Assembly: GCA_937910235.1 (NCBI GenBank)
Contig: CALENB010000405.1
Coordinates: forward strand, 1 to 40,566
Direction: 5' to 3'
Origin: an uncultured Myxococcales bacterium
GTDB lineage: Bacteria > Myxococcota_A > UBA9042
DNA length: 40,566 nucleotides
Below, piece by piece: positions 7,448-34,403 of the stretch; position 1 is the first letter of the stretch, and the number at the start of each line of letters is the position of its first letter. Made by a program: the position numbers and the translations under genes. The notes under the pieces are model-generated. The model did not search any database. It was not told where the DNA came from and saw only the letters and a program-made list of their open reading frames with translations.

Positions 7448-7596
7448 CACTCCCCTGGGTGGGCCACAGACACATCGGCCGAGCCTTCGCGCGCAGGCTG
7501 ACGCGGGCCACGTCTGCGCGCAAGGACCGGGCTGCCGCGGCTAGATTGACCGCAGTCGGGACGGCAGCCTACGATCGGCGCTGGTCTGGAGACATC

Positions 7597-10500: not shown

Positions 10501-10620
10501 CGCTCCGTCAAGATGTTGCGCGTGGAGACAGGCGGCCACACCGCTGCGCAGTTCGCGTTCTTCGTCAAAAAGCTTCAGACGTTTCACGAGCCCTGGAATG
10601 TCGGTGAGCGTGAATTCTGA
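7597..10620 (+). CDS. plsB: glycerol-3-phosphate 1-O-acyltransferase PlsB, long form
   Basis: A 1007-residue protein that acylates sn-glycerol 3-phosphate at position 1, the first step of phospholipid synthesis, at the inner membrane. The acyltransferase core has HKSHID (HX4D, His near residue 448), the GAFFLRRTF block (~488), FIEGTRSRTGK (~525-535) and a downstream MIAPTNFGYERL block. The order and wording match E. coli PlsB (807 residues). An N-terminal half typical of PlsB (YVMKTVSFLDTLFF) precedes it, and a long C-terminal region follows. The extra length is mainly a disordered N-terminal extension of about 100 residues with repeated TGD/NTGD units rich in Ser, Thr, Asp and Ala. ATG 7597 follows GGAGA at good spacing; the longer upstream reading is Arg/Ala low-complexity and is rejected. 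It is divergent from the 6545-7447 gene. Confidence 0.95.
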   Translation: MTAVPPMQPAGQRTASTPSRTNAEASSAGDLSNRANDEADPRDASTGDSDSLDSNTGDANTGDAKTSAPRERYATPSRLVAPTTHGPVDDGLSERDLSHPSRMTTQFGLLARWLAGIFFAPVQFPPQIDTAIATCAREGVPVYVMKTVSFLDTLFFNFAFVRAKLPLAEFTNGPALTAFQPWRQAIAVWWRRRWSTKAPRPNSEIVTGLLRRRRSILLFLRRGFSFTQLAAGPPADPHLIDLIVAQRAVTFPIFVIPQVLIWERSAGSDGTNILETFFGDPEAPGPIRKFAGFLANHRRAFVRLGEPVNLQTFLADHANSTDNGLLAERLRLLIQQRFASEDRVIRGSVVKPPRVMTEEILADPRFEARLRAALPIDDPRSLEELKNAARPMLLEIAADLRLWMIELFSLTLTLVWARIYTGLEIDTAGLERIRQAGRNGPVVIAPSHKSHIDYLVISYLFYRNGMVPPHIAAGANLSFFPMGWLFRHAGAFFLRRTFRGQPVYAAAFEAYITKLLRDDHWIEFFIEGTRSRTGKLLPPRFGILRIILEAVADGVVPDVMIAPTNFGYERLIEETAYRRELEGGEKKREGMTDLIGATRVLVHKYGRMRVQFGEPLSVRSLLECEGVTPGKTYDPKQFSRAVKVCGYHIMGGINSAAVLTPTALTAAVLLTKINRGISREDLLTRVGHLLDTAVRRGAVLSGPLRTAMRMRRQSLVVAESQDRVAQRETGGAHDPLGAQSRRARALGEAVEPFLNGALEMFEEAGWLFRKKFEGDDDDVFIVKRDGRLHLDYYKNNLIHLFVPDALLATALLGGMDGEGRIDPEALAEDTKFLSRVMKYEFVYEPGVTFAVQYQRTLDSFIAQGWLRTLPSGALQMSARLRPLVQLYGKLLQNFIESYMVLGYALPTLGEAPTTDKAFVAHCQAIADKHYELGKVQCREAISYVNLSNALKLYIEEGYVEQRAEKVGKRSVKMLRVETGGHTAAQFAFFVKKLQTFHEPWNVGEREF

Positions 10621-13207: not shown

Positions 13208-16200
13208 ATGTCACGATCCACCGCCTCTGCCTCGTTCCGCGGTCGCTGGATCGCGCAAGGAATCGCCGCTATCGCTGGTGTGGCGTTGGGACTGGGGCTC
13301 TTCGCGCTACCTGGCCAGCTCGCCGTTGAAGTCGAAGCGCGGCTACAAGCCATGGCCTCGCGGCGCGGCGTGACGCTGCGTGTCGGTCACGTCTGGTTGG
13401 AGCCCTTCTCAGCGCTGACGCTCGACAATGTGGAGATCAGCGATCCGACGACCGGCAAGACGATCGCGCGGGTGCGGCGCGTCGCTGTGTCGTACGACGT
13501 CCACGGCGTCAGCGAACCCAAGGTGTTCCTCAAGCAGATCACCCTCACCTCCCCGAACGTCACGCTGCAGCGCGAGGCGAGCGGTCGCTACAACGTCGAC
13601 GACCTGCTGCGCAGCTTGCGCAGTAACGCCGCGCCGTCGGGTCAGAGCGGCGGCGGTGGGCTGCGGCGGTATGTGTCTCACCACATGCCGCGTGTGCGGG
13701 TGACGGGGCTGCAGCTACGGGTCGATGATGACCAAGGCGGGCCGCTGAAGACGCCTTCTGGCGTGGATTTACGGCATCTGCGCTTCATGGGTGCGTCTTT
13801 TGAGTTGGAGGATACGTCCCCCGTTCAGGAGTCCATGGCGCTGCAGTGGTCCGCGCGGACACGCATCGAGGGGATCGGTGGCGCGGTCGGTGCGCATGGC
13901 AAGCTTCAGCTGCCGCTGCGCACGGGTGAGGCGCACATCACGCTGCCAAAGGGGTTCGCGCTGCAGGCCGGCGGGCTGCGTGCCGCGGTGGGCGGCGTGT
14001 CCGCTTGGAGTGACGGTCGCGTCGAGGTCACGGGCATCAACTTGGCCAAGGACGGCGAGAATCAACGACTGGCGCTGGCGATCGAGCGTCTCACCGCGAC
14101 GGTTGGGTTGACGCCGGTGCCCGAGACCGACATCCCCGTGGCGTTGCGCAAGCGGCTACCGGCGGCCGTGTTGCTGGCCCTGCGCCATGTGCGGCGCGTG
14201 GCGCTGCATCACCCAGTCGTCATTGGCTCGCGACCGTCGACGTCCGCAGCCGCGACGCCGCCTGCCCATGGCAAATCAGGCGACACCCCTGCGAGCGCGG
14301 GCGGTGACGCAGATGAAGACAAGGCGGCCGCCGACCGACAGGACGACGACGACGACGCCGCGCCTGGCCGTGCGGCCAAGAAACGAACCGCCCGATCGCG
14401 CCGCCGCTTGCTGCCCCGCGCGACCCGTCGGACCGACAACACCGGCAAAGGCACTGGCATCAAGCGGGCGCGTGCCGGAGCGAGTCAAGCCGCTGTCGCC
14501 GTCGCGCCGCATCGCGGCAAAGCTAGCTCAAAGGCCGATTCGACGGGCGATTCGAAGGCCGGAGACACGGCGCCGGCGGCAAAGCCTGAGCCAGGTCAGA
14601 TCGTCCGTGAGGCGCTCCGGGATTTGCTGGTCGGCGCCGCGGACCGCATGGAGACCCAGCTTCGGCGCGTGCAGGAGATGCTGTCCGCCATGCCGCTCGA
14701 AGAGATCCGCGTGCACCACGGCAGCGCGCGCTTTCGCGGCGAGCGGGCGACGACCGGGCTGGCGCGAGTGGTGTCCGACTACAACCTGTTGGTCAAGCGC
14801 GACGGGGCTAGCATCGTCGCCGAGCTGGACTTCAGCGTCCCGGGTCGCAAAGGCACGCAGCGTATCGAGGGCCGCGTCGACACAAAGTCCGGCGATATGC
14901 ACCTCAAGGTCCGACTCGACCAGCTGCCCCTGGCGCCCTACGCCGCGATCTTGCCGAGCAACGTCTATGTGCACAGCAACAGCGCGCTGCACGACACGCG
15001 CCTGCAGCTGGTGGTCAACCGCAAAGACCGTACGATCTCAGTCGACGGTAGCGGCGCGCTGAGCCACCTCGACATTCGAGCGCGTCGGATTTCTCGGCAT
15101 CTGCTGGCCGATCTCAGCCTGCGCGCCAAGGGCCGGCTGACGCTGGACCTCGCCCGCGAGATGGTGCGACTCACCAAGGGTGAGCTGGCCGTCGGCAAGG
15201 TGACGGCGCTGGTGGACGGCTCGGTGCTGCGTTACCGCACGGCGCCGGCGTTCGATCTGCACGTGAAGATGCCGACGGTGCCCTGCCAAGACATCGTCGA
15301 CTCCATGGTGCCCAACGTCGCGCCGATGTTGATCGGCATGTCTTGCCACGGCACCGCGTCGCTGCGCCTCAACCTGGGCCTCGACACCAAAGACATGCGC
15401 AGCCTGAAGCTGGAGTACAAACCGCTGCTGCGAAAGATGGAGATCGACAGCCTTGGCAAGTACATCCGGTTCGACGTGCTGCAGAGTCCGTTCGAGCATC
15501 ACACACGGCAGAAAGACGGCACGCTGTACACCTTCGTCACCGGGCCCGGCAGCGATCGCTGGACGCCCATTGAGGCGCTCGGTGAGCATATGCCAAAGGT
15601 CGTGACGACTACCGAAGACGGCTCCTTCTACTGGCACCAGGGCTTCTCGCTCAATCAGATCCGCAGCGCATTTGTGACGAATCTGCTGCGCGGCCGCTTC
15701 GTGCGCGGGGCGTCGACGATCAGCCAGCAGGTGGTGAAGAACCTGTTTTTCGTCGAGTTCGAGAAGACGCTCGCCCGCAAGCTGCAGGAGGCGATCATCA
15801 CTTGGCAGATGGAGCGCACGCTCGACAAGCCGCAGATCCTGCAACTCTACTTCAATATCATCGAGTTTGGACCGCAGATCTACGGGATCCGCGCGGCGGC
15901 GAGCCACTATTTCAATCGGCCGCCGTCGGAGCTGACCCTGCTGCAGAGCATCTGGCTCGGCAGCATCATCCCCAACCCGAAGGCGTTTTATCACCAGTTC
16001 ACCAAGGGCGAGGTGAAGCCGTCGTGGCAGAAATACCTCTGCTGGATCGGCGGCGTCATGCGCAAGCGAGAGAAGATCACCGACAGCGAGCTGGCGAGGC
16101 TCGGCACCTGTCAGGTGGTCTTTGGCGACGGCACCGATGGCTCTGAAACCCCGAAAGATCAAGGGCTGGGGCATGAAGTGGCGATCGACGCCGACGGTCG

Positions 16201-16375
16201 GCCGCTCGATCCCGGCGGCGCGCCGCAGCCCACCAACCGCACCAATGACGACCTGCCGCTGCCACCACCGAAGCTCCGACCGAGCCTGCCGCAGCCGGGC
16301 AAAGGTGCGAATCTGCGACGCCGCAAGGCGAGTCGGCTGGCGGCGCCTTCTGTTCCAGGTGACGAGCAGCCCTGA
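13208..16375 (+). CDS. AsmA-like protein fused to a GT51 peptidoglycan glycosyltransferase domain
   Basis: A 1055-residue protein anchored by one N-terminal transmembrane segment (residues ~16-38). Residues ~45-330 and ~460-770 are beta-rich and AsmA/TamB-like, with RVGHVWLEPFSALTLDNVEIS near the start. Between them lies a disordered insert (~345-460) of Asp, Ala, Lys and Arg. Residues ~785-960 are a GT51 lipid II polymerase domain: TEDGSFYWHQGF with the catalytic Glu at 803, GASTISQQVVKNLF (~836-850), RKLQEAIITWQMER, and LYFNIIEFGPQIYGI. No penicillin-binding transpeptidase domain follows, so it is a monofunctional glycosyltransferase in domain terms. A Pro-rich tail ends the protein. The expected activity is polymerisation of glycan strands in the periplasm. 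The ATG has no strong Shine-Dalgarno, but the signal-anchor begins just after it. Confidence 0.9.
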   Translation: MSRSTASASFRGRWIAQGIAAIAGVALGLGLFALPGQLAVEVEARLQAMASRRGVTLRVGHVWLEPFSALTLDNVEISDPTTGKTIARVRRVAVSYDVHGVSEPKVFLKQITLTSPNVTLQREASGRYNVDDLLRSLRSNAAPSGQSGGGGLRRYVSHHMPRVRVTGLQLRVDDDQGGPLKTPSGVDLRHLRFMGASFELEDTSPVQESMALQWSARTRIEGIGGAVGAHGKLQLPLRTGEAHITLPKGFALQAGGLRAAVGGVSAWSDGRVEVTGINLAKDGENQRLALAIERLTATVGLTPVPETDIPVALRKRLPAAVLLALRHVRRVALHHPVVIGSRPSTSAAATPPAHGKSGDTPASAGGDADEDKAAADRQDDDDDAAPGRAAKKRTARSRRRLLPRATRRTDNTGKGTGIKRARAGASQAAVAVAPHRGKASSKADSTGDSKAGDTAPAAKPEPGQIVREALRDLLVGAADRMETQLRRVQEMLSAMPLEEIRVHHGSARFRGERATTGLARVVSDYNLLVKRDGASIVAELDFSVPGRKGTQRIEGRVDTKSGDMHLKVRLDQLPLAPYAAILPSNVYVHSNSALHDTRLQLVVNRKDRTISVDGSGALSHLDIRARRISRHLLADLSLRAKGRLTLDLAREMVRLTKGELAVGKVTALVDGSVLRYRTAPAFDLHVKMPTVPCQDIVDSMVPNVAPMLIGMSCHGTASLRLNLGLDTKDMRSLKLEYKPLLRKMEIDSLGKYIRFDVLQSPFEHHTRQKDGTLYTFVTGPGSDRWTPIEALGEHMPKVVTTTEDGSFYWHQGFSLNQIRSAFVTNLLRGRFVRGASTISQQVVKNLFFVEFEKTLARKLQEAIITWQMERTLDKPQILQLYFNIIEFGPQIYGIRAAASHYFNRPPSELTLLQSIWLGSIIPNPKAFYHQFTKGEVKPSWQKYLCWIGGVMRKREKITDSELARLGTCQVVFGDGTDGSETPKDQGLGHEVAIDADGRPLDPGGAPQPTNRTNDDLPLPPPKLRPSLPQPGKGANLRRRKASRLAAPSVPGDEQP

Positions 16376-16384
16376 CTTGGCTGG

Positions 16385-16427
16385 GGCCTCCACACGGACC
16401 CTGCGCGAGCGACCCGAGAGTGAGGCC
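16385..16427. repeat. inverted repeat between convergent genes
   Basis: GGCCTC at 16385-16390 is the reverse complement of GAGGCC at 16422-16427, and the pairing can be extended by an inner AC/GT after one unpaired base. It occupies most of the 69-base gap between the GT51 gene (+) and the 249-residue unknown gene (-), whose 3' ends face each other. That position suits a bidirectional transcript end, but there is no T-run on either side. Confidence 0.35.
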
Positions 16428-16444
16428 GTGCGACGCGCTCGGAC

Positions 16445-17194
16445 CTACTCGCTGCCCGCGGACACCACACGGATCATGTCGTAGATGTTGGTCGCGCGGT
16501 CGGCGCCCTCTTGGCCGCGTGGGACGATACGATTCTGCGGTCCACGAATCGGCTCAGGGCCCCACCACGAGTTCGGCATGTCCTGCGGGTGGGTGCCCTC
16601 AATGACGTACTGGTAGACCGGACCATCGTGGTTGGCCTTGGCTTCTGCCCCGAAGCGATGCTCCCACGGGTCTTCGAGCAGCAGACGGCGGAAGCTGTCG
16701 CGCACGGTGCCCATCATGCGCTGACTCCAGACGTCGGCGTATTGCAGCTCCGGCATCTTCGCTGAGCGAACCTCCTCGAAGAGGCCATCTGCGGCGCGCG
16801 CGGACACGCCCTCCTGCCGTTGCATGGGGAGGCGGTCTTCGGGGTCGACGTCGGTCTTCTCGACGCGGCCGATGTTGCGCAGGTTGAACTGTGGGTAGTG
16901 ATTGTGCTCGATCGCCTCGAGGATGTCGCCGGGGATCGCGTGGTCGGAACCGGCACGAAACGTCGCCGCGTAGGTCTGTTGCGCCTTCGTGCGCGCCTCC
17001 ACAAGATCCGTCAGCTTGTCGAACTGGAAGTCATGGGCCTCGAACACCACAAAGCTTCGCCGACGCTCTAGCTCCCGATCCAAGGGCAAGATCCCGCGTG
17101 AAAACGCCTGCCGGCGCCGGATCGTCAGGTTCAATGGCCACGCTACGTTGGCGGCCGGACCACGGAGCAGATCTTTGGCGCGGGCTTCCGTCAC
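16445..17194 (-). CDS. unknown protein at the end of the Ycf46/Ycf35 gene group
   Basis: A 249-residue protein with no signal peptide, membrane segment or recognised domain. It is rich in charged and aromatic residues. Visible blocks include LTIRRRQAFSRGILPLDREL, a WSQRMMGTVRDSFRRLLLEDPWEH helix-like segment, and a C-terminal Trp/Pro/Asn-rich stretch with NSWWGPEPIRGPQNRIVPRG. GTG 17194 is chosen because GGAG lies just upstream in a GGGGAGAGTGGAG tract; the longer reading from 17242 has no such site. It starts 103 bases after the DUF2997 gene and is the last gene of the minus-strand run, so it may work with the AAA ATPase. Function unknown. Confidence 0.7.
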   Translation of the reverse strand: MTEARAKDLLRGPAANVAWPLNLTIRRRQAFSRGILPLDRELERRRSFVVFEAHDFQFDKLTDLVEARTKAQQTYAATFRAGSDHAIPGDILEAIEHNHYPQFNLRNIGRVEKTDVDPEDRLPMQRQEGVSARAADGLFEEVRSAKMPELQYADVWSQRMMGTVRDSFRRLLLEDPWEHRFGAEAKANHDGPVYQYVIEGTHPQDMPNSWWGPEPIRGPQNRIVPRGQEGADRATNIYDMIRVVSAGSE

Positions 17195-17297
17195 GGCTCC
17201 ACTCTCCCCCAAGATCGTCGCGATGCTGCGGCCGGAGCACACCCCCGATGGCGCTAGCAGCCCGGATTTTCAGCGTTTGAGCTGGTCGATTTCGACG

Positions 17298-17501
17298 CTA
17301 TTCACTGTCGATCTCAATCGTCTCTTCGGTCTCACCCTGAATGTAAAACTCGCTGGTGCGCTCACGGCTGCTCACCACGCCGAGCGCCTCCTCGATGTCG
17401 CGTGTCAGCGCCTCGCATTCCCCACCCTCCGCGCCCTTCACCTGCAGGGAGACGTTGCCTTCCTCATCGATGCTGAACTGAATCTCGCGGCGCTTGGCCA
17501 T
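17298..17501 (-). CDS. DUF2997 family small protein
   Basis: A 67-residue acidic protein. It shows the DUF2997 pattern: an N-terminal beta strand (EIQFSIDEEGNVSLQV), a Gly-Cys-containing turn (GGECEALTRDIEEALG) and a C-terminal SEFYIQGE. DUF2997 genes commonly accompany DUF1257 (Ycf35) genes in cyanobacteria and other bacteria; their biochemical role is not established. Here the gene lies 40 bases downstream of the DUF1257 gene, with AGGAG before its ATG. The single Cys and the small size are compatible with a binding partner or adaptor, not an enzyme. Confidence 0.8.
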   Translation of the reverse strand: MAKRREIQFSIDEEGNVSLQVKGAEGGECEALTRDIEEALGVVSSRERTSEFYIQGETEETIEIDSE

Positions 17502-17541
17502 GTCGGTCTCCTGGGCTGGGTTGGTGGGGCTGTCGACTGCG

Positions 17542-17952
17542 CTAGTCGCCCCAGCTGCTCACGGTCACGTGGATGTGGTTCTCCTCGTCGACCGTCTCTT
17601 CCTCGAGGGTGTAGCCGCGCTTGGTCACCTCCTCCTTGACGGTGTGGTAGGCGTACCGTTGCATGACCTTGCGTGTGAACTCAGCCTGGTCGTACCCAGC
17701 CGTTGTCTCGACAAACTCCCAGTCCGCCACAAACGTCGCGGTGCCGGTCTCAGCGTCGATGTTGATGCCGATCTCGTACGTCTTCGAGGCGTGGATCACC
17801 AGATCAGCCTCGGTCGTCTGCCCCAGGTAACCCTTGACGAGCACCTTCTGACCCACCTCAGCTTTGGTGAAGTTGAAGCCGAGCTCCTCCAGCACAAGCT
17901 CGAGGCGCAGCACGTTTTTGATCTTCGTCTGAACGGTCGTGAAGTGCGACAT
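17542..17952 (-). CDS. DUF1257 (Ycf35-like) protein
   Basis: A 136-residue soluble protein matching the Ycf35/DUF1257 family throughout: the start MSHFTTVQTKIKNV, a middle ADLVIHASKTYEIGINID, a FVADWEFVE strand, and the C-terminal YAYHTVKEEVTKRGYTLEEE block. Ycf35 is a conserved open reading frame of red-algal plastids and cyanobacteria with no established activity. It lies 35 bases downstream of the Ycf46-type ATPase and upstream of DUF2997; AAGGAG precedes its ATG. The combination with Ycf46 and DUF2997 suggests one complex or pathway. Confidence 0.9.
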   Translation of the reverse strand: MSHFTTVQTKIKNVLRLELVLEELGFNFTKAEVGQKVLVKGYLGQTTEADLVIHASKTYEIGINIDAETGTATFVADWEFVETTAGYDQAEFTRKVMQRYAYHTVKEEVTKRGYTLEEETVDEENHIHVTVSSWGD

Positions 17953-17987
17953 GAGGGCTCCTTCGGGCGGTCACGTGAGGTGTAGGG

Positions 17988-24016: not shown

Positions 24017-24406
24017 TCAAACTTTGCGTAGGCGGCGCCAACCGAGCCGCAGGTGCGGTGCCACGCGCGCCCAGCCGCTGCCGAGCCGACGTTGTGCTTG
24101 CGCGAGGGGTCCATGCGGTGGCAACCGCAACGTGCGCCCGCGGCACGCGATGGCGTCCACTCGGCCGATCACGGCGTCGCTGGGTACCGTCGGATCCGGC
24201 TGCAGGTTGGTGTCGCCGCGCGCGATGAGTCCGTCCGGGGTGGTGGCGACGACGCGGTGGGCGAACACCGACGCGCCGTCTGCTGCGATGAAAACAACCA
24301 GATCGCCGGGGACCACGGGGTCGTTCGAACAGACGCGAACCGACATGCCCTGGCCGAGCGGCCACATGGAGCGGCCAGCGACGGGCCACCAGCGGGCGTC
24401 AGCCAC
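24017..24406 (-). CDS. S26/S24-like peptidase, last gene of the RiPP-like group
   Basis: A 129-residue protein with a compact signal-peptidase-like fold signature: GRSMWPL with the probable nucleophile Ser13, VVPGDLVVFIA, FAHRVV with His50, and IARGDTNLQPDP. The nucleophile-His arrangement resembles archaeal/eukaryotic-type S26 peptidases, not the Ser-Lys bacterial leader peptidase. No transmembrane segment is apparent, so it may be cytoplasmic or peripheral. GTG 24406 overlaps the radical SAM stop by eight bases, which couples their translation. In this context it could remove the leader of the modified peptide, but that is an inference; general signal processing is the alternative. The C-terminal 40 residues are basic and Leu/Arg-rich. 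Confidence 0.8.
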   Translation of the reverse strand: MADARWWPVAGRSMWPLGQGMSVRVCSNDPVVPGDLVVFIAADGASVFAHRVVATTPDGLIARGDTNLQPDPTVPSDAVIGRVDAIACRGRTLRLPPHGPLAQAQRRLGSGWARVAPHLRLGWRRLRKV

Positions 24407-25574
24407 CGGTCGGCGAAGCGCCCTTTCGTTGGCCCCGCTCTGGCTGATAGATCGGAAACATGAACTTCTTCTTGTCTGCAGGGGGCAGCGTGGTCTCAGG
24501 TACCGAGCGCCACTCCTCCTCGGTGTACGTCACGTTGCCGTGCGGTTCGTAGGCAACCATCGCGAGTTTTGTGCGTTGGTGAAACACGTCAGGCGCCTTT
24601 CGGTAGTCACCGGTGCGCTTGTAGGCCTCACCGGCGCAGTAGAAACAGTGGCCGTTACCCGCGCACGATTGGCAGTCCGTCCGCTCCGCGTTGGTCCACT
24701 TCCGGAGGGCTGCGCGCTCCTCCGAATCGTGCCACGACTCAAGAAAGGGTCGCTCACGCACCTGACCAATGTGCATCGGGAACATGACACACGGCCAAAG
24801 CGCCCCATCCGGAGCGACGTACGCCAGCGTCCGGCCAGCGCCGCACGGCGCCCCGTCGGGGACGAAACTCGGCTTCACGCCCGAATCACGGGAAGCCTTG
24901 GTCAGCGTCGCGCGTTTGCCACGTACGTAGGCCTCCTCAGAGAGGCTGAGCGAGTCGAGTTGGTCCGTGGCTGAATGGTCGGGCAACACCTGCAGCGAGC
25001 CAGAAAACGAGCACCCGAGCGCGGTGAAGTACGCCTCCAAATCCGGCAATTCGTCCACATTTGAGTTCATCGCAACGGTCGCCGCGCGCACCTCCACACC
25101 GGCGTCGCGCAGCGCGCGAATCCCAGCGAGCGTCGCCGCCAACGACCCTGGCACCCGTGTGATGGCGTCGTGGATTTCCTCGTCCAGCGAATAGACGCTC
25201 ACGTCAACCCGCGTCACGGCCAGCGCCGCCAGCTGCGCTGCCAGCTCCGGGCTGATGTTGCCTGCGTGTGTCTTCACCGTACTGCTGAACCCACGCGCCG
25301 CAGCGAAGCGAAGCATCTCCATGAAATCCGGGCGAGCGAACACCTCGCCGCCACTCCAAATCAGGTACGGCACGCCGGCTACGTAGAGCTCTTCGAGCAG
25401 CTTCAACCAGTCCGCCGTCACCATCTCTGGCCAAGTGTCCTTCTGGTCGAGGTAGCAGTGTTCACAATCGAGGTCGCACCGGTACGTCACGTCCAGGTGG
25501 ACGATCGACGGGACGTCGGCGCGCGCCAGCGCAGCTCGAAGGCCGTCCAACGGGGTTGAGTCGGAGGTCATCAT
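24399..25574 (-). CDS. radical SAM/SPASM peptide-modifying enzyme
   Basis: A 391-residue enzyme. The CX3CX2C motif (Cys33, Cys37, Cys40 within TYRCDLDCEHCYLD) binds the 4Fe-4S cluster that cleaves S-adenosylmethionine. A radical SAM barrel follows with LIWSGGEVFARPD. The C-terminal part has a SPASM-type auxiliary cluster region: Cys244 and Cys262 (PDGALWPC), then CX2CX5CX2C at 301-313. SPASM proteins typically modify ribosomal peptides (sactipeptides, ranthipeptides, PQQ and mycofactocin precursors) or act as protein maturases. The ATG at 25574 overlaps the HprK-like stop as ATGA, and the S26-like gene overlaps its own stop. The candidate precursor lies 1 kb upstream in the same unit. No RRE domain is evident inside this enzyme; the separate PqqD-like protein could supply it. 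Confidence 0.93.
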   Translation of the reverse strand: MMTSDSTPLDGLRAALARADVPSIVHLDVTYRCDLDCEHCYLDQKDTWPEMVTADWLKLLEELYVAGVPYLIWSGGEVFARPDFMEMLRFAAARGFSSTVKTHAGNISPELAAQLAALAVTRVDVSVYSLDEEIHDAITRVPGSLAATLAGIRALRDAGVEVRAATVAMNSNVDELPDLEAYFTALGCSFSGSLQVLPDHSATDQLDSLSLSEEAYVRGKRATLTKASRDSGVKPSFVPDGAPCGAGRTLAYVAPDGALWPCVMFPMHIGQVRERPFLESWHDSEERAALRKWTNAERTDCQSCAGNGHCFYCAGEAYKRTGDYRKAPDVFHQRTKLAMVAYEPHGNVTYTEEEWRSVPETTLPPADKKKFMFPIYQPERGQRKGASPTGG

Positions 25575-26491
25575 GTCAGGCTCCGGAGCACGCCGAGGAC
25601 GTCAGCGTCGCAAGACGTAAGTGAGTGACTCATGGAACGTGGCGGGTGTCGCGAAAGCAAGGATTCATGCGCTGCAAGGTGTATCTCCACCGGAATCCCC
25701 GGCACCCACAGACTCGAACTGTGGAGAACCGTCAGCGCGTCGGCAGTGGTTGCGCGCCACGCTGCGGACCGGTCTCGCCGCTCGCTGAGCAGAAACAGAC
25801 CGCCGAGCGGCAGCACCGGCGGACGCTCCGTCGCCGCGGCCCGTTCTTGTGCATACCAGTGCGACTGCCACGATCCACCCGGCCCGGTGGGACTCAGAAA
25901 GGCGAACTCCTCGTTCATGAAATGACTCGGAAAACGCCTGCACAGCGTCGACTTGCCTCTGCCGCTGGCGCCCACGACGACGACGGCACAACCGTCGACT
26001 TCGAGCGTCGCAGCGTGAAGGAGCACTCCACCGTCTCGGAGCACCATGGCCATGAGCGTCCCAACGGCTCCCTCGACCACGCCTTTTCGGGCGGCGACGG
26101 TCTCCTGGCCCAGCTCCAGGTTCAACGCGAAGCGTCCCCGGCCAGTGACCCAATCTACCTCGCCTTCCGACCACGCGCCGTTCAGTCCGAAGCCACGCTC
26201 GTTCCAGAACGTGATTTCAGCTTTCGCGCGGCCGTCCCGAATGCGGTCGACAAATTCAAGCTCAACGCGCGCCGGCAGCCCGGGGGCGTCATGCCATCCG
26301 TACACGTCGAAGTAGGTCGGAGTCGCCGTGACGCCGACGCGATAGTCGCCCGCGCTGATGGTGATTCGACCGCCCTCAGCGTCGCACATGCGATGCCGCC
26401 ACATCGGGAGGAATTTGCCTTCCTCCGGCGCGACACGCCAACCTTGCGCCTCCTGACGAACCCGCTCAAATTCCGCTTTTGTGTACGCCAC
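25571..26491 (-). CDS. HPr kinase (HprK)-related kinase
   Basis: A 306-residue protein whose C-terminal half resembles the HPr kinase/phosphorylase catalytic domain: GGVLLHAATLEVDGCAVVVVG leading into the P-loop GASGRGKST (residues 174-182), then MNEEFAF in the position of the metal-binding acidic residues, and a later LPLGGLFLL. The N-terminal ~150 residues are beta-rich and unlike the regulatory domain of Bacillus HprK. Related kinases are found in lasso-peptide clusters, where PadeK and ThcoK phosphorylate the precursor, and in PqqD-linked loci. The start is GTG 26491, with GAGGG just upstream. It follows the candidate precursor by 81 bases and overlaps the radical SAM start. Phosphorylation of the peptide core or a carrier is the inferred role. 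No PTS HPr gene is in the window. Confidence 0.88.
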   Translation of the reverse strand: MAYTKAEFERVRQEAQGWRVAPEEGKFLPMWRHRMCDAEGGRITISAGDYRVGVTATPTYFDVYGWHDAPGLPARVELEFVDRIRDGRAKAEITFWNERGFGLNGAWSEGEVDWVTGRGRFALNLELGQETVAARKGVVEGAVGTLMAMVLRDGGVLLHAATLEVDGCAVVVVGASGRGKSTLCRRFPSHFMNEEFAFLSPTGPGGSWQSHWYAQERAAATERPPVLPLGGLFLLSERRDRSAAWRATTADALTVLHSSSLWVPGIPVEIHLAAHESLLSRHPPRSMSHSLTSCDADVLGVLRSLT

Positions 26492-26572
26492 ACGGCCCTC
26501 GCTGCGCCTGTCTGGGCACCCAAACCTAGCGGCGTGTGGCCGAGCCCACGGTTCTACCCCGGTCGCCGCAGC

Positions 26573-26761
26573 TCAGGCGGTGATGTCACAGCTGTCGAAT
26601 GGAGGGCCGTCGACTGTGGGTGTGCCGCAGGTAGGGCCCGAACCGAGAAGCGCCATGTAGTCGCCGCCGCTGAGGGTCTCCACAGCTGGCGCCTCGTACT
26701 GCGCTCGCGCGGGCGGCGTGTCTGCCGTGGAACTAGCTGTCGTCTGGTCTTCTGTGCTCAT
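26573..26761 (-). CDS. candidate RiPP precursor peptide
   Basis: A 62-residue peptide. The first ~20 residues are Ser/Thr/Ala/Asp-rich and look disordered. YEAPAVETLSGG (22-33) fits the YxxP motif recognised by PqqD-type RRE proteins in lasso and related peptides. The C-terminal part, about residues 41-62, is a short Gly/Pro/Thr/Asp-rich segment with two cysteines (Cys45 and Cys58) and ends in SCDITA; these could be sites of thioether formation or disulphide bonding, and Ser/Thr residues could be phosphorylated. ATG 26761 follows AGGGGG at good spacing; the longer frame from 26800 lacks one. It lies 48 bases after the giant lipoprotein gene and 81 bases before the HprK-like gene, in the usual place for a precursor. 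No similar peptide is known to me. Confidence 0.75.
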   Translation of the reverse strand: MSTEDQTTASSTADTPPARAQYEAPAVETLSGGDYMALLGSGPTCGTPTVDGPPFDSCDITA

Positions 26762-26809
26762 CGCGAGGCCCCCTATGAGAGAGTTGGTTGTCCAGTTCAC
26801 TGGAAATGA

Positions 26810-29800
26810 TCAGTAAATCAGCACCGCGTAGCCGCTGTAGGTGCCGACCAGCAAGTCTGGATGCCCGTCGCCGTTCACGTCCCCGATACTGCGGAAATTG
26901 AAGGACCCGAAATCTTTCGAGCCAGCGGCGAAGGGATGCTCAATGCTGAGGTCTTCGACGTGGTAGCTCGGCTCAGTGCCAGTGCCGGAGGCGCGAAGCA
27001 GCGGCGCGCGGATGGACACTCGTGTACGGCCAGTCGGGCCGTAGGAGGCCTGGGAGTACGCGATGGCGATAGCGCCTGTCCCCGACTGATCAAGGAAGTT
27101 TCCGGCGCTGCGCAATGGGTACGCGTAGGTGCTCACCGCATAGCCCATCGTGTGTTTCCGGAGACCGGAGACGCCGCTCACGACCGACGACTGCAACACC
27201 GTCACCTTGCCGAGGCTGGCGGTGATCGACTTGCCGCGCACCCAGTACAGCCAGATCGCGGCGTTGCCCGGTGCGTGCGCAAACATCAGATCCGGGATGC
27301 CGTCGCCATCGAAGCTGACGATAACCGGATCTTGGGGCGCCTTGCTGCCTGTTTCGCCGTCCAGTCGCAGGGCGACGGTCGTCGTGTCGCCCGTCCCCGC
27401 GCCAGAGAGCGTGCTGGTCAGCGTGAGGGTCTGATCGCCCGAGACTGGGCGCCCCTTCACGATGAACACGGTCTGCGGCGAGTTGAACTGCGTGATGACC
27501 AGATCGTCGTATTGTGTCCCCGTCCCGTCGCCATCGGCGATGATGTTCGCGCCACCACCCAGGCTAAATCCAAAGATCGGCGAGCCGGATGAGTCAGACC
27601 GGTAGATCGTCAGCATGTTGTGGGTCTTCCGATCCGCGGCGCTGGTTACGTCGACCGTGATCGGTGAGCTCGTCGACCAGGCCTTGTTGCCCGGCATGAC
27701 CATCACCTTGTCGTACGGCTCTGCGGTGGTTGGCGTGACGCGGAAGACGAAGTCGTCGATGGGCTGCGAGCCGCTAGCGAGATCCCCGGTGAAGTTGCCG
27801 GCCGAGGCCAAGTAGGCGACGCCAGCCGCTGCGGCGTTGCTCACATTCTTCAACGTGACGGCGGCGATCGACGTGAGCGGTTTGCCCTTCTCGCCCAGGT
27901 ACACGCGGATTTCGCGCGGTACGCCCGCGCCTTCACCGTAGGACGCAACAAGATCCTGCACACCGTCGCCGTTGACGTCGATGTTGGCGGCAACCTCCTG
28001 CCCCAACGTCATCGGCTCAATCCAGCAGTCGTGCGTCGAAGCGGACTTCGCCTTCAGGTCGATGTCGGGGAAGACCCCGCCAGTGTTGGCGACGCCGTAC
28101 ACCACGCAGAACGGCATGTTCGCGATAGAGCGCACGCCGAAATCAGCCATGCCGTCGCCGTTCACATCGCCAATCGCGAGCGGTAGCGCGTACAGGAACT
28201 TGCTGTCGTACGGGCTGACACTTCCCGTCACCTTCGCGAACTTCAATCGCAGCTCCTTGGTCGAGACCGCGTTGCTGATCGAGCCAGCGTTGCCGGCCGC
28301 GTCGAGGGCTCGCGCCGCGAAGTACCAACTCGACTTGCCGTTATCGGTGTGCGGCGCGAACTTGCAGGCGTCGGTCAGGTCCCTGCCATCCGGCCCCTCA
28401 ATCACGAGCGTCTCGGCGCTGCCAGGGGCTTTGGGCGCGGTCAACTTGGTCGTGGAGAGCGCGGTCGTGTTGCACGCCTTCTCGAACTCGGCGAGGTTCG
28501 TGATATCCGCCTTTGAGTAGCGGACCTCGTACTTCGCCGCTGCAATACCTGTGGCGCCATTGTCCCCCGGAGCCTTGAAGGTCAGCAGCGCGGACGGACG
28601 TCGGGGGTTCACCTTGGTCTCGTCGATAGCGTCGAGGACCAGCGCCGCTGGCGGCGTGCTGTCCGTGACCACCGTGAGCGTGGCGCTCCCCACGTTGCCT
28701 GCGCCGTCCGTCGCGGACGCCTGGATCTTTGAGGTCGCGTCAGCGGCCAGACTGATCAGCTTGACCTGCGCGGTCGCCGTGCCGCCGCTACCTGTCAGGT
28801 TGAGGGGGAACTTGACGGCCGACGCCAAGTCGACCGCCGTACCCTGCACATTCTTCAGGGACGTCAGCGTCGCGCCGCTCAGGTTGGCATCAGCCACCTC
28901 GATCAACGCGTGAATCTGGATTCCGTTCTGGCTTGGATCCTGGTCTCGACTGGCGCCATAAACAGGGCTCGTTCCACTCGCGGCCGTGTCAAACCCGGCG
29001 ATTTTGCCGGCGACAAAGCTCACCTTTGGGTTTGTCAGATCGACCTGGAGGGCTGCCGCGCCTGACGTGCCGACGTTCGTGGTTCCGGCGAAGACGATCG
29101 CCTCAACCTTCATGTCGTCGCCGTCCTTCACGCCGAGCGTGAACGATGCAGCGGAGTTGGAGGGCGTCACCTTGCCGGCCACGACCGAGCCTTTCATGAA
29201 GCGCACTTCCGTGATGTTGCCACAGGGCCCGACGTATTCGGCCTTGAGCGCAAGATTGACGCTCGCGCAATCGGTCCCCTTGGTCGGGCAGGACTGTGTG
29301 TTGACCTGGCCGGTCGACGGTAGACCCGCGAGCACGACCTTGCAGCCCGTCAGCGTCACCTTGAAGGGGCGATCCGCGGATGTCGTGTTGCCGTGTTCGT
29401 CCGTCACGCTCACCCGAACCACGTAGTTGTCGGTCTTGCCAAACGAGACCGTAACGCTGACGTCGGGCTCCGTGCCGCCGTCTTTCGTCACAGTTCCGGC
29501 AGACACGGTGTTGAAGCCGCCGCAATTGGCGAAGGTCGCGTCACAGTCCGTGCCCAGCTCGACCTTCCATGTATCGCCGCCGCTGCTGCCAAACGTCGTC
29601 TTGATCTGGTACCCGCTCGTGATGGCGTCCGCGTCGTCCGCGTCCCCAAACACCTGCTTGTCCGTCGGCGCGGCGATGCTGACCGTCGGCGCGGTCGTGT
29701 CGACGAGCAAGGTCGACGGCACTGTAGCGATGGTCGCCGTGTTGCCACATGTATCCTTTAGGAGCGCGGTCACCGTGTGGCTGCCGTCGGACAGCGTGCC

Positions 29801-32800
29801 GTACGTCGCATGCGCGAAGATCGCGAAGCCCTTGGTCATCGACAAGGTTCCGACCGTCTTTCCAGCGTCCTTCAGCACGACTGGCTGCCCTTCCACGTCG
29901 GCCGATGGGCTCGATACCGTGAGATCCAGCGTGTCACCTTTGACGATGACGATCTTCGGCGGGAGCACGAACTGTCCAAGCGGCGCGATGGTGTCGACGG
30001 TGTAGGTGCCCACAGTGAAGGCGGCGCTCTCGTTGCCCACGATGTCGGTTGCGACGGCCTGCAGCGTGGCGGATCCAGTGGGCAGCGTCACGCTGACACC
30101 AGCGATCTTGCCGGTGCTGGCGGCGGTACCGACCTTGGATCCGGCCGAAAAGACCGAGATCGTCGCGTCTTCGTTGTCCATGGTGGCCGCGAAGCTGAAG
30201 GTACCACCCGGCAAATCGTCGAGCTTGGTCTGCGACGCTGCGGCGAGACAACCGGCTGGGACGCCGCTGATCGTGGGAGCGAGCACCGACTTCAACGCCG
30301 GCGAGACAGTGTCAACGTAAATGTAACGGCGGCGCAGCGTGTCGCCGAGTGGCGTCGACACCGAGCTCACCCAGTCACCGGCGATCGCGGCGTTCTTTCC
30401 GACCGGCAGGACCTCGACACTGACCGTATGTTGTCCGTCGGGCAGATTCGCCACCAAGATGCCACCGTTGACGGTGATCGGGATGTTGGGACCCACGGCG
30501 TTGTAGCCAGGCCGTGCACACGCGCCATTACCAGTCACGCTGCTGCTCTTGGAGCAGACCCGTGCGACGGCGCCCGGCAACAAACCAATCGTGACAATGC
30601 TGACCTGCTTTGCCGACAGCTTGCTGAACGGTGTCGCACATTTCCCACCGACGCAGACACCTGCGCCGCACGACGCCGAGGTCGTGCAGTTGGTCGCGTT
30701 GACGTAGGTAGGCTGGCCGATCCGCACGTCGGGTGCGTTGACGACCACCTTCACCGTCACCTGAAGTGACGCGACGTTGCCAGCTGCGTCGCTCGCGGTG
30801 AGGACCAGCTTGACCTTAAGGCCGTCAGGCAAGGTGACAGCGCCGAAACCGACCTTCAACTTGCTCGTCTCGCCGACCGCTGGGTGGTCCTGCGAGGTGT
30901 AGCTCTGAACCTTCTTGCCGTCATCATCGAAGATATCGAGCGCGACGGCGCCGTTCTCCTCGAGCCCGGAGACGTTGACCGTGAGCAATAGCTGGAGGCC
31001 GTCCGCAGGGTTCTTGTTGAGGTCGTCTGCCGCTAGAAAGCTCGCCTTGCTGGGGCTGAGCTCAATCAACTTGGGTGCGACGCGATCGACGGTCACGGTC
31101 ACCGCGGCAGAATCCGCCTTCTGGCCTGCCTCGTCGGTGACGGTCGCCACAACGGAGCAGCTACCGCCGTGTACGAACTGCACGCCAGCGATCGTCGCCT
31201 TGCCGCCAGCGACCGTGCCGCTGTAGGTCTTGCTGCTTGCGCCGCAAGTGACGAGGGCGGTGACGCTCGAGCCGTTGATCGCGTTCCCGACGCTGGCTAC
31301 GACGGACGTGCTGCAGTCAGTGACGCCCGGCACGCACGCCGTCGACTGGCCATTGAACGAGGTCTTGTCGGCTGGCGACGTGATCGTCACCGTCGGCAGG
31401 CCGTCTTTGCGGGTGATGACGAGCACCGGGGACACCCCTTGGGCGCCGCCACCGGCCGGCGTGGCCACAAGCTGTAGCTCGTTCGCGCCCACGTTCAGTC
31501 CTGGGACAGTAGCCGTGTAGATCCCGCCAGGGGACTCAGCGACCTTGATCCCGACCTGTACAGGACCGTCGACGTGCACGACAACCTTCGCGCCAGCGAT
31601 GGGAGCGCCGTCCTTCTGGCTCGTGATCTTCGCCTGGACAGTGATGCTGTCAGTAGCGACCGCAGCGTTCGTCTTGGGAGAGACCCAGGTCACGATCACC
31701 GCGTTGGAGATGAGCGTGATGGTCTTTGCCGGGTTGGTCTTGGTGTTGCCTTGTTTATCGGTGCCGCTTACGACGAGGGAGTTCTGGCCGGCCTGCAGCG
31801 TCACGTCGGCGAAAGTCACCGTGCCTGCGCCCTTGATCTTCTGGCATGGCGGTCCAAACGCGTTGATCTTGAGACACACGGTGCTCTCGCCGGTCTCACC
31901 CGAAACGGCGACGGTTACGTCGGTCTGGTAGCCGGGCGTGGTCGCGTCCCCGTCTGGGTCAACGATTGGGTCGAGGCTCGCCTTGGTGGGGGCGGTGATC
32001 ACGAGCGCGGGCGCCGTCGAGTCCAGAACGATGGTCCGCGTGAGGTCGCTACAGGCGGAATCCTTGGCGTCGTTGCCGAGCGCGTCGGTCGTGCTGAGGC
32101 GCAGCACGTAGGTGCCGTCGGGCAGCTTCTTCGCCGGGTTGCCGGCCTGGAGCGCGAGGTTGAAGCCGACCGAGTTGTTGGCGACCTTGCCAACTGGCGC
32201 GTCGATGAACGTCGCGCCACCCTTCAGCGAGAGCTTGGCCTCGATAATGCGACCGTCCAGCCCGGTTGCTGTGGCCGAGATCGGCAGTGTTGCGAGGTTG
32301 GTGACCGCGTTGTTGCTGGGCTGCGAAATGACGAGGCACGGCGCCGGCAGCGCGATCGTGAACGAACTCTCGGGGCTTGTGGCCGGATTGGCTCCGTCGA
32401 TGGAGGCGCGGCACACGACGCCCGCGGTCAGATCGTTGATGTTGAGGGCGACTTGGATGGCGACACCCGATGCACCCGCCGGGAAGACGGCTGTCCCGTG
32501 TGCCGTGGTCCCATAGGCGCTGTCGATCGCGTTCGCGCGACAGAAGATCGAGACCTTGTCGCCAGCGTTCGCCTTTGCGACGTCAACGATCATCTCGGTC
32601 TCGTAAATGGTCGTCGTCTTGGGGTCGTCGTCGTCCTTTGCGAGCAGCACGTCATTGGGCGCTGGGCTCGAGATGACGAGCGTCGCCAGGTCCACGAACG
32701 CGGTGAGCGTCTTCTCTGTGGCGCCGGCCAGCCCGCAGCTGTTAGTGGCTGCAACGGCGACTTTGTAGGCCTGAGACTTGTCGAGCGTGAGCGTGGTCTG

Positions 32801-33853
32801 AAAGCTCGATCCGTTGGCGCCGATGTTCGTCTTGCCGACCGCGAGGCCGTTGACTGTGATCTCGATGGCCTCGAGCGGCTTCATCGTCGTCGCCGTCCCC
32901 ACGATGTTGACCTGGATACCGTCCGCTGGATTGCCATTGGCGTCGTCCGCGAGCGTGATTTGGTCGCTTGTTGGTTGAAGGATCGTCACCACGGGCGATT
33001 CGGTGGTCACCTGCACGGTCTGCTGGGCCGAACTTCCCACGGGTCGCGTCGGATAGGCCTGATCTTCGACCACGGCCTCGACTTGAGCGGTGGCGTTCGC
33101 GAGACCGGTCGACTTGCTCGACACGGTCACCACGACCGTGACGCTGGACAGGCCGTTCAACGCGACCTTGTCAGACTCGCCAGCCTTGCCCTCTGCGTCG
33201 GTGTACTTGATGTACGCGTGGCTGCAGTCGGGTGTGGTCGTGCTGACCTCAAGCGCGACCTGAAAGCCATCCTTGCCCGGATCGGCGTCGGCCGTCGTGC
33301 AGGCAGCTGTGGCCGCGAGCGTGGCTGTACAAGCGTTGGTGCAGTTGACGAGCGCGCTCTTCGTCTTTGATGCGCCGGCCGCCGCCACCACGATGTCTTG
33401 GGCCACAGAGGCGCACTGAATCGTAATCTTCGATAGGGTCGCAGCACCAGAGTTTATCGTCGCCTTGCCGAGGCTTGCGCCACCGATCGTGAGCGTGACC
33501 TCAGTGCCATCGGGCACGTTGGTCGCGGTGATGATCACGTCCGTCTGAAAGCCCGGATCGTCGGCGTACTTGTCTTGCGTCGTCGCCAGAATGACGCTGT
33601 TCGCGTTTTTCAACGCGTCACCACTCTTGAGCTCCAAATAGAAGTCCACCTGCGGCTGAGCGGCGGTATCGGCGCCCGCGTCGGCCGCGATGTCACCGCT
33701 CCCTGTGTCGTTGGCGACGTCCCCGTAACCGGCGGGACCCGCAGCGGCTTCGTCACTCGTGCCGCACGCAGCCGTGAGACCCGCGGTCAGCAGCAGGGCC
33801 AAGTGGTGGGGCCGAATCGCCCACGATCCGTTTCGAAGATTTCTGATTTTCAT
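26810..33853 (-). CDS. giant lipoprotein with Ig-like repeats and C-terminal FG-GAP repeats
   Basis: A 2347-residue exported protein. The signal peptide has a hydrophobic core and an AAC at residues 28-30, so lipidation at Cys30 is probable although the -3 residue is Thr. Residues ~60-1860 are a long array of bacterial Ig-like or cadherin-like domains; many begin with a VD..AP or VD..SP line (VDTTAP, VDTVSP, VDTIAP) and carry an acidic loop ending in Gly-x-Gln. A Cys-rich knot-like motif (CTTSASCGAGVCVGGKC) lies near residue 1060, and an FN3-like stretch near 1690-1780. From ~1868 to the end are FG-GAP/VCBS-type repeats with DVNGDG calcium loops (three clear copies), ending GYAVLIY. ATG 33853 follows GAGGGA six bases upstream. 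It lies between the PqqD-like and precursor genes and may be a surface partner of the RiPP system. Confidence 0.93.
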   Translation of the reverse strand: MKIRNLRNGSWAIRPHHLALLLTAGLTAACGTSDEAAAGPAGYGDVANDTGSGDIAADAGADTAAQPQVDFYLELKSGDALKNANSVILATTQDKYADDPGFQTDVIITATNVPDGTEVTLTIGGASLGKATINSGAATLSKITIQCASVAQDIVVAAAGASKTKSALVNCTNACTATLAATAACTTADADPGKDGFQVALEVSTTTPDCSHAYIKYTDAEGKAGESDKVALNGLSSVTVVVTVSSKSTGLANATAQVEAVVEDQAYPTRPVGSSAQQTVQVTTESPVVTILQPTSDQITLADDANGNPADGIQVNIVGTATTMKPLEAIEITVNGLAVGKTNIGANGSSFQTTLTLDKSQAYKVAVAATNSCGLAGATEKTLTAFVDLATLVISSPAPNDVLLAKDDDDPKTTTIYETEMIVDVAKANAGDKVSIFCRANAIDSAYGTTAHGTAVFPAGASGVAIQVALNINDLTAGVVCRASIDGANPATSPESSFTIALPAPCLVISQPSNNAVTNLATLPISATATGLDGRIIEAKLSLKGGATFIDAPVGKVANNSVGFNLALQAGNPAKKLPDGTYVLRLSTTDALGNDAKDSACSDLTRTIVLDSTAPALVITAPTKASLDPIVDPDGDATTPGYQTDVTVAVSGETGESTVCLKINAFGPPCQKIKGAGTVTFADVTLQAGQNSLVVSGTDKQGNTKTNPAKTITLISNAVIVTWVSPKTNAAVATDSITVQAKITSQKDGAPIAGAKVVVHVDGPVQVGIKVAESPGGIYTATVPGLNVGANELQLVATPAGGGAQGVSPVLVITRKDGLPTVTITSPADKTSFNGQSTACVPGVTDCSTSVVASVGNAINGSSVTALVTCGASSKTYSGTVAGGKATIAGVQFVHGGSCSVVATVTDEAGQKADSAAVTVTVDRVAPKLIELSPSKASFLAADDLNKNPADGLQLLLTVNVSGLEENGAVALDIFDDDGKKVQSYTSQDHPAVGETSKLKVGFGAVTLPDGLKVKLVLTASDAAGNVASLQVTVKVVVNAPDVRIGQPTYVNATNCTTSASCGAGVCVGGKCATPFSKLSAKQVSIVTIGLLPGAVARVCSKSSSVTGNGACARPGYNAVGPNIPITVNGGILVANLPDGQHTVSVEVLPVGKNAAIAGDWVSSVSTPLGDTLRRRYIYVDTVSPALKSVLAPTISGVPAGCLAAASQTKLDDLPGGTFSFAATMDNEDATISVFSAGSKVGTAASTGKIAGVSVTLPTGSATLQAVATDIVGNESAAFTVGTYTVDTIAPLGQFVLPPKIVIVKGDTLDLTVSSPSADVEGQPVVLKDAGKTVGTLSMTKGFAIFAHATYGTLSDGSHTVTALLKDTCGNTATIATVPSTLLVDTTAPTVSIAAPTDKQVFGDADDADAITSGYQIKTTFGSSGGDTWKVELGTDCDATFANCGGFNTVSAGTVTKDGGTEPDVSVTVSFGKTDNYVVRVSVTDEHGNTTSADRPFKVTLTGCKVVLAGLPSTGQVNTQSCPTKGTDCASVNLALKAEYVGPCGNITEVRFMKGSVVAGKVTPSNSAASFTLGVKDGDDMKVEAIVFAGTTNVGTSGAAALQVDLTNPKVSFVAGKIAGFDTAASGTSPVYGASRDQDPSQNGIQIHALIEVADANLSGATLTSLKNVQGTAVDLASAVKFPLNLTGSGGTATAQVKLISLAADATSKIQASATDGAGNVGSATLTVVTDSTPPAALVLDAIDETKVNPRRPSALLTFKAPGDNGATGIAAAKYEVRYSKADITNLAEFEKACNTTALSTTKLTAPKAPGSAETLVIEGPDGRDLTDACKFAPHTDNGKSSWYFAARALDAAGNAGSISNAVSTKELRLKFAKVTGSVSPYDSKFLYALPLAIGDVNGDGMADFGVRSIANMPFCVVYGVANTGGVFPDIDLKAKSASTHDCWIEPMTLGQEVAANIDVNGDGVQDLVASYGEGAGVPREIRVYLGEKGKPLTSIAAVTLKNVSNAAAAGVAYLASAGNFTGDLASGSQPIDDFVFRVTPTTAEPYDKVMVMPGNKAWSTSSPITVDVTSAADRKTHNMLTIYRSDSSGSPIFGFSLGGGANIIADGDGTGTQYDDLVITQFNSPQTVFIVKGRPVSGDQTLTLTSTLSGAGTGDTTTVALRLDGETGSKAPQDPVIVSFDGDGIPDLMFAHAPGNAAIWLYWVRGKSITASLGKVTVLQSSVVSGVSGLRKHTMGYAVSTYAYPLRSAGNFLDQSGTGAIAIAYSQASYGPTGRTRVSIRAPLLRASGTGTEPSYHVEDLSIEHPFAAGSKDFGSFNFRSIGDVNGDGHPDLLVGTYSGYAVLIY

Positions 33854-34028
33854 AAGGTTTCCCTCACTCACATGCGTACGACAGGCGCGGTCTCATCAAA
33901 ACGTGGCGCCATCTGGGGCGGCGGCAGGCTCCTACGGCGGGCGCTGCAACGCAACCCCCTGGCATCTAGATCCAATCACGGTAGGGTGCCATCTCCTGCT
34001 TGGAGCCACAAAGGCTGAGCCCACCTAG

Positions 34029-34310
34029 TTAGCCACCCACCGGCGCTGAGATTGGCGCGAGAATGTCGCGCTCGACCAAGGTCGCTACGAACGACGAGAC
34101 GTCCGTCAGCGCGCGATTGTAGTCGACCTCGTAGTGGCGCCCGAGTTCGGTCGCGAGCGCGCCAACGGTCGCTGGGCCGACCCGCAACGTGCGGAACACG
34201 GTCGTCGCGGTCGCGTTGGTGAACTGGTGCAGCGCGCGGTCCGAGGTCACGACAAAAACTTCGCCGGCGACCTCTCGGAAGGCAGCATCGGGATTTAGTT
34301 GGTACTTCAC
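34029..34310 (-). CDS. PqqD-like RRE (RiPP recognition element) protein
   Basis: A 93-residue protein with the PqqD fold pattern: a beta-hairpin start (VKYQLNPDAAFREVAGEVFV), a strand-turn around HQFTNATATTVFRTL, then helices containing ATELGRHYEVDYNRALTDVSSFVATLVERDIL. The family binds the leader peptide and presents it to radical SAM or other tailoring enzymes. GTG 34310 is chosen because GGAGA lies just before it and the domain starts there; an ATG ten codons upstream has a weaker context. It precedes the giant lipoprotein by 175 bases and the precursor by 7.3 kb, all on one strand. It is the likely recognition partner of the SPASM enzyme. Family members of this kind are also linked to HprK-related kinases. 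Confidence 0.88.
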   Translation of the reverse strand: MKYQLNPDAAFREVAGEVFVVTSDRALHQFTNATATTVFRTLRVGPATVGALATELGRHYEVDYNRALTDVSSFVATLVERDILAPISAPVGG

Positions 34311-34403
34311 GTTGTCTCCAGGTTGCCGGCGATGCACAGCCGCCGGTCGGATGATTGGTTGTCATTGCGACGCGAAAGGTTGATTGAGCTGTCGCGCGCA
34401 ACG

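Follow-up and report, generated by a model that had tools for sequence, protein, structure and literature searches.

Several described systems contain some of the components considered here. In phosphorylated lasso peptide systems (those of PadeK, ThcoK, PsmK and BsfK, with a discrete B1 protein), an HprK-like kinase is accompanied by a stand-alone PqqD-like recognition element (RRE) for ribosomally synthesized and post-translationally modified peptides (RiPPs) and by a YxxP leader. Phosphorylation by PadeK, ThcoK, SyanK and PsmK takes place at the C-terminal Ser of the precursor, whereas BsfK modifies Ser3 (PMC9266682, PMC10368454); the active-site motif of lasso kinases is His-Lys-Asp-Asp (PMC9266682). 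Lasso RREs recognize the leader residues Tyr-17, Pro-14 and Leu-12 (PMC10368454), and PqqD, FusE and StsC are among the RRE groups to which YxxP or WxxP/W/Y/LxxP leader motifs were assigned (PMC12710340). The gamma subunit of quinohemoprotein amine dehydrogenase acquires its cross-links from a radical S-adenosylmethionine (SAM) enzyme and loses its leader to a dedicated serine protease; an ABC transporter exports it, and it is joined to large extracytoplasmic subunits (PMC7876137). The window analysed here, 40,566 nucleotides of contig CALENB010000405.1 (assembly GCA_937910235.1) of an uncultured Myxococcales bacterium (GTDB lineage Bacteria; Myxococcota_A; UBA9042), carries six genes on the minus strand which encode, in this order, a PqqD-like protein, a giant lipoprotein, a 62-residue peptide, an HprK-like kinase, a radical SAM/SPASM enzyme and an S26-like peptidase. 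These genes probably direct the synthesis of an undescribed RiPP family, the product of which would partner the giant surface lipoprotein.

The kinase, the stand-alone RRE and the leader motif are shared with the phosphorylated lasso systems, but the radical SAM/SPASM enzyme and the S26-like peptidase replace their B2 protease and cyclase. Transglut_core3, the lasso B2 leader protease, is absent from the whole genome, in agreement with an earlier sequence-only reading which had set the locus apart from lasso systems. Pfam revealed no asparagine-synthetase-like lasso cyclase among the locus genes, the cyclase family not having been searched genome-wide. As judged from its genes, the locus is not a member of the lasso group. 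In the SynChlorMet (Scm) cassette, ScmC is the best NCBIfam match of the kinase, and ScmE and ScmF are likewise radical SAM/SPASM proteins. That cassette has two radical SAM proteins, however, whereas there is one radical SAM gene here, which encodes an enzyme scoring 84 bits against ScmE (cut-off 400). Moreover, an S26-like peptidase and a giant lipoprotein are present here, the precursor is not recognized and all scores are far below the cut-offs; by these comparisons the locus is not a SynChlorMet cassette.

The QhpC/QhpD/QhpE set of quinohemoprotein amine dehydrogenase similarly comprises a small leader-bearing peptide, a radical SAM enzyme (forming Cys thioethers there) and a leader-removing serine protease (PMC7876137). 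In contrast, genes for a heme subunit, a flavoprotein or a transporter are absent from the present locus, which has a kinase and a separate RRE instead, and a thioether is a prediction here. The maturases of sactipeptides and ranthipeptides (SkfB, AlbA, StsB and SuiB type) have the same radical SAM/SPASM architecture, and Cys is present in every tail here; the RRE nevertheless stands alone, a kinase is encoded in addition and the cross-link is predicted from the genes. The HPr-rel-A system (HprK_rel_A, PqqD_rel_X) likewise joins an HprK-like kinase with a PqqD-like chaperone. The PqqD protein of one related locus (L112) scores above the threshold of PqqD_rel_X (39 vs. 35 bits) and that of the window falls below it (21 vs. 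35 bits). None of the kinase, radical SAM enzyme, peptidase and RRE of the window reaches any NCBIfam cut-off. No paper describing the system was found in the open-licence literature, including the SynChlorMet, HPr-rel-A and FG-GAP/RiPP topics, bioRxiv preprints being largely outside this coverage. The set, for which the earlier reading knew of no described counterpart, is not entirely without precedent, since SynChlorMet already joins ScmC with radical SAM/SPASM proteins and lasso systems have HprK-like kinases and RREs (PMC10368454).

With the kinase sequence as query, matches were obtained in 21 genomes of the window's family, as a single copy in each, and in hardly any others among 379 genomes of the phylum. 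All six genes recurred in this order in 20/20 other family loci (L024 and L035 end at contig edges), and the flanking genes of these 20 fetched loci were the same ones wherever the contig extends far enough. A kinase profile detected the gene in 41 of the 52 genomes of the class. Loci from other families of the class (n = 20) were of the giant type in 18 cases, several of which were also interrupted by contig ends, and of a sister type in two (L088 and L090). Altogether, 39 class genomes carry the PqqD-like, giant, peptide, HprK-like, radical SAM and S26-like genes in identical order. Because this order repeats in 20/20 family loci and in 18 loci of other class families, the arrangement is not due to chance. 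This recurrence and the coordinates bear out the earlier description of six genes in this order on one strand, and both overlaps which it had noted are found in the sequence: the HprK-like and radical SAM genes share ATGA (4 bases), and the radical SAM and S26-like genes overlap by 8 bases. Scanning the contigs with a single radical SAM sequence gave no matches, and with an alignment of the giant protein it gave one useful relative, L095 (Myxococcales bacterium SP4258), in addition to chance FG-GAP matches.

A short open reading frame (ORF) with a common motif lies between the giant and kinase genes in 20/20 family loci and 18/18 further class loci; in the window, it starts 48 bases past the stop codon of the lipoprotein gene. 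Homologous loci devoid of the small peptide would have refuted the sequence-only reading; the check for them did not do so, as the peptide was present in all 39 class loci of this architecture and in 31 more loci. The alignment of the small peptides, which the sequence-only reading had proposed, comprised 70 sequences (39 from the class, 28 from loci outside it and three from sister loci of class genomes) and gave a conserved leader and a short Cys-containing tail. The leader motif common to the 70 peptides is [KR][KR]P[YW]xxPx[VIF], often followed by FE..aL, and it appears to resemble the YxxP type bound by lasso RREs. In the aligned columns, the P of YxxP is conserved in 99%, Y or W in 97% and the first tail Cys in 96% of the rows. 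A Cys follows the motif in 70/70 peptides, and a second one is usually close to the end. The tails are short and vary in length and sequence far more than the leaders, with only Cys in common. The ratio of nonsynonymous to synonymous substitutions (dN/dS) was below 1 in ten close pairs, the eleventh pair being saturated at synonymous sites, and a Shine-Dalgarno-like sequence precedes most of the peptide genes (AGGGGG before the ATG in the window). The peptides therefore look translated and selected, considering the conserved motif and Cys and the dN/dS values of close pairs. They matched nothing in the curated family libraries tried, including NCBIfam and Pfam. The general features of a RiPP locus, i.e. 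an encoded precursor, a conserved leader, a variable core and adjoining modifying enzymes, are all found, and the 70 peptides with their leader, Cys tail and dN/dS below 1 support the earlier proposal of a complete peptide-maturation set. The sequence LLxSGC in many class peptides resembles a lipobox; the peptides carry no signal sequence. A divergent subgroup with longer Gly-rich tails (..FPDNCKMD..GAGGFGG..C.QSS.PTVMC.NIGS) was encountered in L120 (near 9117) and L129 (near 9068; oriented coordinates).

Elsewhere in the phylum, the kinase profile matched 77 of 189 genomes, many of them weakly. Out of 33 regions fetched outside the class (one of which repeats L094), 26 yielded the peptide; together with L094 and L095, 28 loci in other lineages have this peptide together with the same set of enzymes. 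In 15 of these 28 loci the peptide gene is immediately preceded by an FG-GAP/Ig giant gene, at a spacing of 8–139 bases and in the two gene orders which, where clearly recognized, include the giant gene, PqqD-giant-peptide-kinase-rSAM-S26 and kinase-PqqD-rSAM-giant-peptide (rSAM, radical SAM). The peptide and giant genes are genetically coupled across the phylum. Chance and mere class-wide synteny were both rejected as explanations of the adjacency, since 15 rearranged or distant loci keep it. As the window genome has only about 20 FG-GAP genes in all (our own count from the search listing), the adjacency is far above chance, with the reservation that the loci are not independent. In the radical SAM tree, 52 giant-bearing and 14 giant-less loci can be separated by as few as two label changes, a pattern which fits long vertical co-inheritance.

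The giant lipoprotein consists, according to Pfam, of immunoglobulin (Ig)-like (Big_13) repeats and C-terminal FG-GAP repeats behind a lipobox with Cys31, and this Cys is invariant in 12/12 aligned relatives. The length is 2347–2453 aa across 20 complete family copies, a constancy unusual for a repeat protein, and identity reaches 36–57% in the best local matches between family loci. The sequence-only reading had left this protein out of the maturation set; as the most constant partner of the peptide, it is not a bystander. In one locus (L081:10753-17820, minus strand) the giant gene is broken into two ORFs, which indicates a decayed copy or an assembly error. A 3168-aa protein rich in FG-GAP repeats is likewise encoded in the window's genome (G000, contig C413, about 15735-17978), and in L133 (10557-18683, minus strand) a 2709-aa FG-GAP-rich ORF on the opposite strand converges on the kinase gene, with no giant gene upstream of the peptide.

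The earlier domain calls were largely upheld. Pfam confirms PqqD, Radical_SAM, SPASM, FG-GAP and Ig-like repeats among the proteins of the locus, and the kinase and the peptidase have weak NCBIfam matches and AlphaFold models fitting the PEPCK/HprK and Sec11/LexA folds, respectively. The RRE exceeds the PqqD cut-off (E 6e-8), its profile matches the lasso RREs TbiB1 and TfuB1 best in the PDB, and it is the only PqqD protein in the genome. The radical SAM enzyme (Radical_SAM E 8e-22, SPASM E 3e-8) has the invariant Cys residues C33, C37 and C40 (CxxxCxxC) and, in the SPASM region, C244, C262, C301, C304, C310 and C313; its closest solved relatives are SkfB (the best), PqqE and the SuiB-type structure 5v1q. 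The kinase matches ScmC (E 9e-8, 31.8 vs. cut-off 125 bits) and HprK_rel_A (E 5e-6, 25.9 vs. 200 bits), both below cut-off. Its residues H159, G174, S176 and K180 (the Walker A Lys) are invariant, the His and Lys being conserved in 21/21 family members, and the acidic pair, Glu194-Glu195 in the window, is DE or DD in most others. His159 and Lys180 correspond to the His and Lys of the lasso kinase motif (PMC9266682). The peptidase, in which Ser13, His50 and Asp65 are invariant and no membrane anchor is evident, matches the archaeal signal peptidase family TIGR02228 below cut-off (E 4e-7). Its AlphaFold2 model (predicted local distance difference test score 92.7) resembles human SEC11C and SEC11A most, and also LexA-type proteins. 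By sequence and model, this is an S26/LexA fold with a catalytic Ser and His of the Sec11 type, and leader cleavage is predicted.

From these data we infer the following course of bond formation, phosphorylation and cleavage and the following role of the giant protein. The stand-alone RRE would bind the leader via [YW]xxPx[VIF] and present the tail with its Cys to both the radical SAM/SPASM enzyme and the kinase. The former probably cross-links the tail, through a Cys thioether or otherwise, and the latter may phosphorylate a hydroxyl of the core; in most lineages beyond the class of the window, this would presumably be that of the C-terminal Ser. This residue, which is the target of PadeK, ThcoK, SyanK and PsmK (PMC9266682, PMC10368454), is the commonest last residue of peptides outside the class (Ser in 21/31, Thr in 3/31, including the three sister loci of class genomes). 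As a universal kinase target, the C-terminal Ser was rejected for the window's class. The S26-like peptidase would then take off the leader, and the finished peptide would work with the giant FG-GAP/Ig lipoprotein encoded upstream as its small modified subunit or ligand. The cross-linked gamma subunit of quinohemoprotein amine dehydrogenase may be likened to such a partnership as the closest functional parallel. We tentatively propose that the modified, possibly phosphorylated and cross-linked peptide is a built-in subunit or ligand of the giant lipoprotein, forming a co-inherited conserved cell-surface device and not a free metabolite.

Several observations speak against this overall interpretation. 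Since 13 of the 28 loci outside the class and all three sister systems of class genomes lack the giant gene, the peptide can be made without it. The class locus contains no transporter, exporter or regulator gene, although a leader-cleaved peptide would have to reach the surface protein. Only 12 of the 39 class peptides end with Ser or Thr, and that of the window ends with Ala. The window kinase has Glu-Glu where the lasso kinases carry Asp-Asp, the match of its model to the PEPCK and HPr kinase folds is modest (template modelling score at most 0.47), and the fold matches of the peptidase model have E values of 0.0015 and above.

Alternatively, the finished RiPP could be a released signal or antimicrobial and the giant lipoprotein its receptor, a self-recognition or adhesion protein, or merely a co-transcribed product. 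We regard this as rather unlikely, though it is the strongest competitor. An ABC transporter next to the peptide or kinase gene in the giant-less loci L118 and L107 would be expected for a secreted peptide, and tails more variable than leaders are typical of antimicrobial or signalling RiPPs. On the other hand, one vertically inherited copy per genome and fixed housekeeping neighbours in the family are unlike most antibiotic clusters, the lack of a transporter and a regulator in the class locus counts against release as well, and the giant gene keeps its place directly upstream of the peptide in two gene orders. A link between absence of the giant gene and an ABC exporter was not established, as only L118 and L107 show one and the motif scan was overly strict. 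In giant-less loci the peptide gene often immediately follows the radical SAM gene, and in L130 an EGF-domain protein is encoded upstream.

It is quite improbable that the peptide is the precursor of a small redox cofactor (similar to pyrroloquinoline quinone or mycofactocin) for a surface or periplasmic protein. The radical SAM enzyme has some of its best sequence matches in PqqE, the mycofactocin maturase and maturases of the heme-d1/heme-b type. In cofactor precursors the core hardly varies, whereas the tails found here differ in length and sequence with only Cys constant, and the conserved set includes no PqqB/C/F-like or oxidoreductase gene. That the small ORF, short and missed by every family library tried, is untranslated, with the giant lipoprotein or another metabolite as the substrate of the enzymes, is hardly credible in view of 70 homologous peptides with a leader motif, mostly preceded by a Shine-Dalgarno-like sequence and with dN/dS below 1.

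Three further systems were observed in the class. In a congeneric genome, a second, giant-less system (L093, G138:C862:36500-49088) comprises genes for a PqqD-like protein, a kinase and a radical SAM enzyme and a peptide ..RKPYAKPSFVVASFRRFFMVCSNNSNSCAGGPFVKPPNNAKACS near 8781-8918; a 1690-aa Laminin_G protein is encoded further upstream. The sister systems at L088:4337-8098 and L090:6072-9842 (kinase, PqqD, radical SAM, peptide and S26 genes) adjoin a C25 (gingipain-type) peptidase with a hydrophobic and Arg-rich C-terminal segment, and the tails of their peptides are almost the same (CSSGPAPVSGSQTEGCPP). The genes of the window locus are listed in Table 1. They are flanked by genes for TsaB and an M50 protease upstream and for YbgF, LysM and FHA proteins downstream. 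The plus strand of the window also encodes a 1100-aa glycerol-3-phosphate acyltransferase-like protein (7318-10620) and a 1055-aa DUF748 protein with a transglycosylase domain (13208-16375).

Table 1 Genes of the putative RiPP locus in the window
Feature	Position	Strand	Remarks
PqqD-like stand-alone RRE	34029..34337	-	GTG start assumed; Pfam PqqD
Giant lipoprotein, 2347 aa counted from ATG	26810..33853	-	Pfam Big_13 and FG-GAP; lipobox Cys31
Precursor peptide MSTEDQTTASSTADTPPARAQYEAPAVETLSGGDYMALLGSGPTCGTPTVDGPPFDSCDITA, 62 aa	26573..26761	-	Homologous peptide in 69 further loci
HprK-like putative peptide kinase	25571..26491	-	Start codon uncertain; weak NCBIfam ScmC/HprK_rel_A match, predicted fold
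Radical SAM enzyme with SPASM domain	24399..25574	-	Pfam Radical_SAM, SPASM
S26-like (Sec11/LexA fold) peptidase, candidate leader peptidase	24017..24406	-	Weak NCBIfam TIGR02228 match, predicted fold

If the proposed interpretation is correct, the locus would represent a RiPP family in which an HprK-like kinase and a leader peptidase of the S26 type are united with a radical SAM/SPASM enzyme. The pairing of the peptide with the giant gene in two gene orders leads to the idea that a very large surface protein may have a modified peptide among its working parts. The single vertically inherited copy in most members of the class suggests a core role at the cell surface rather than that of an optional antibiotic.

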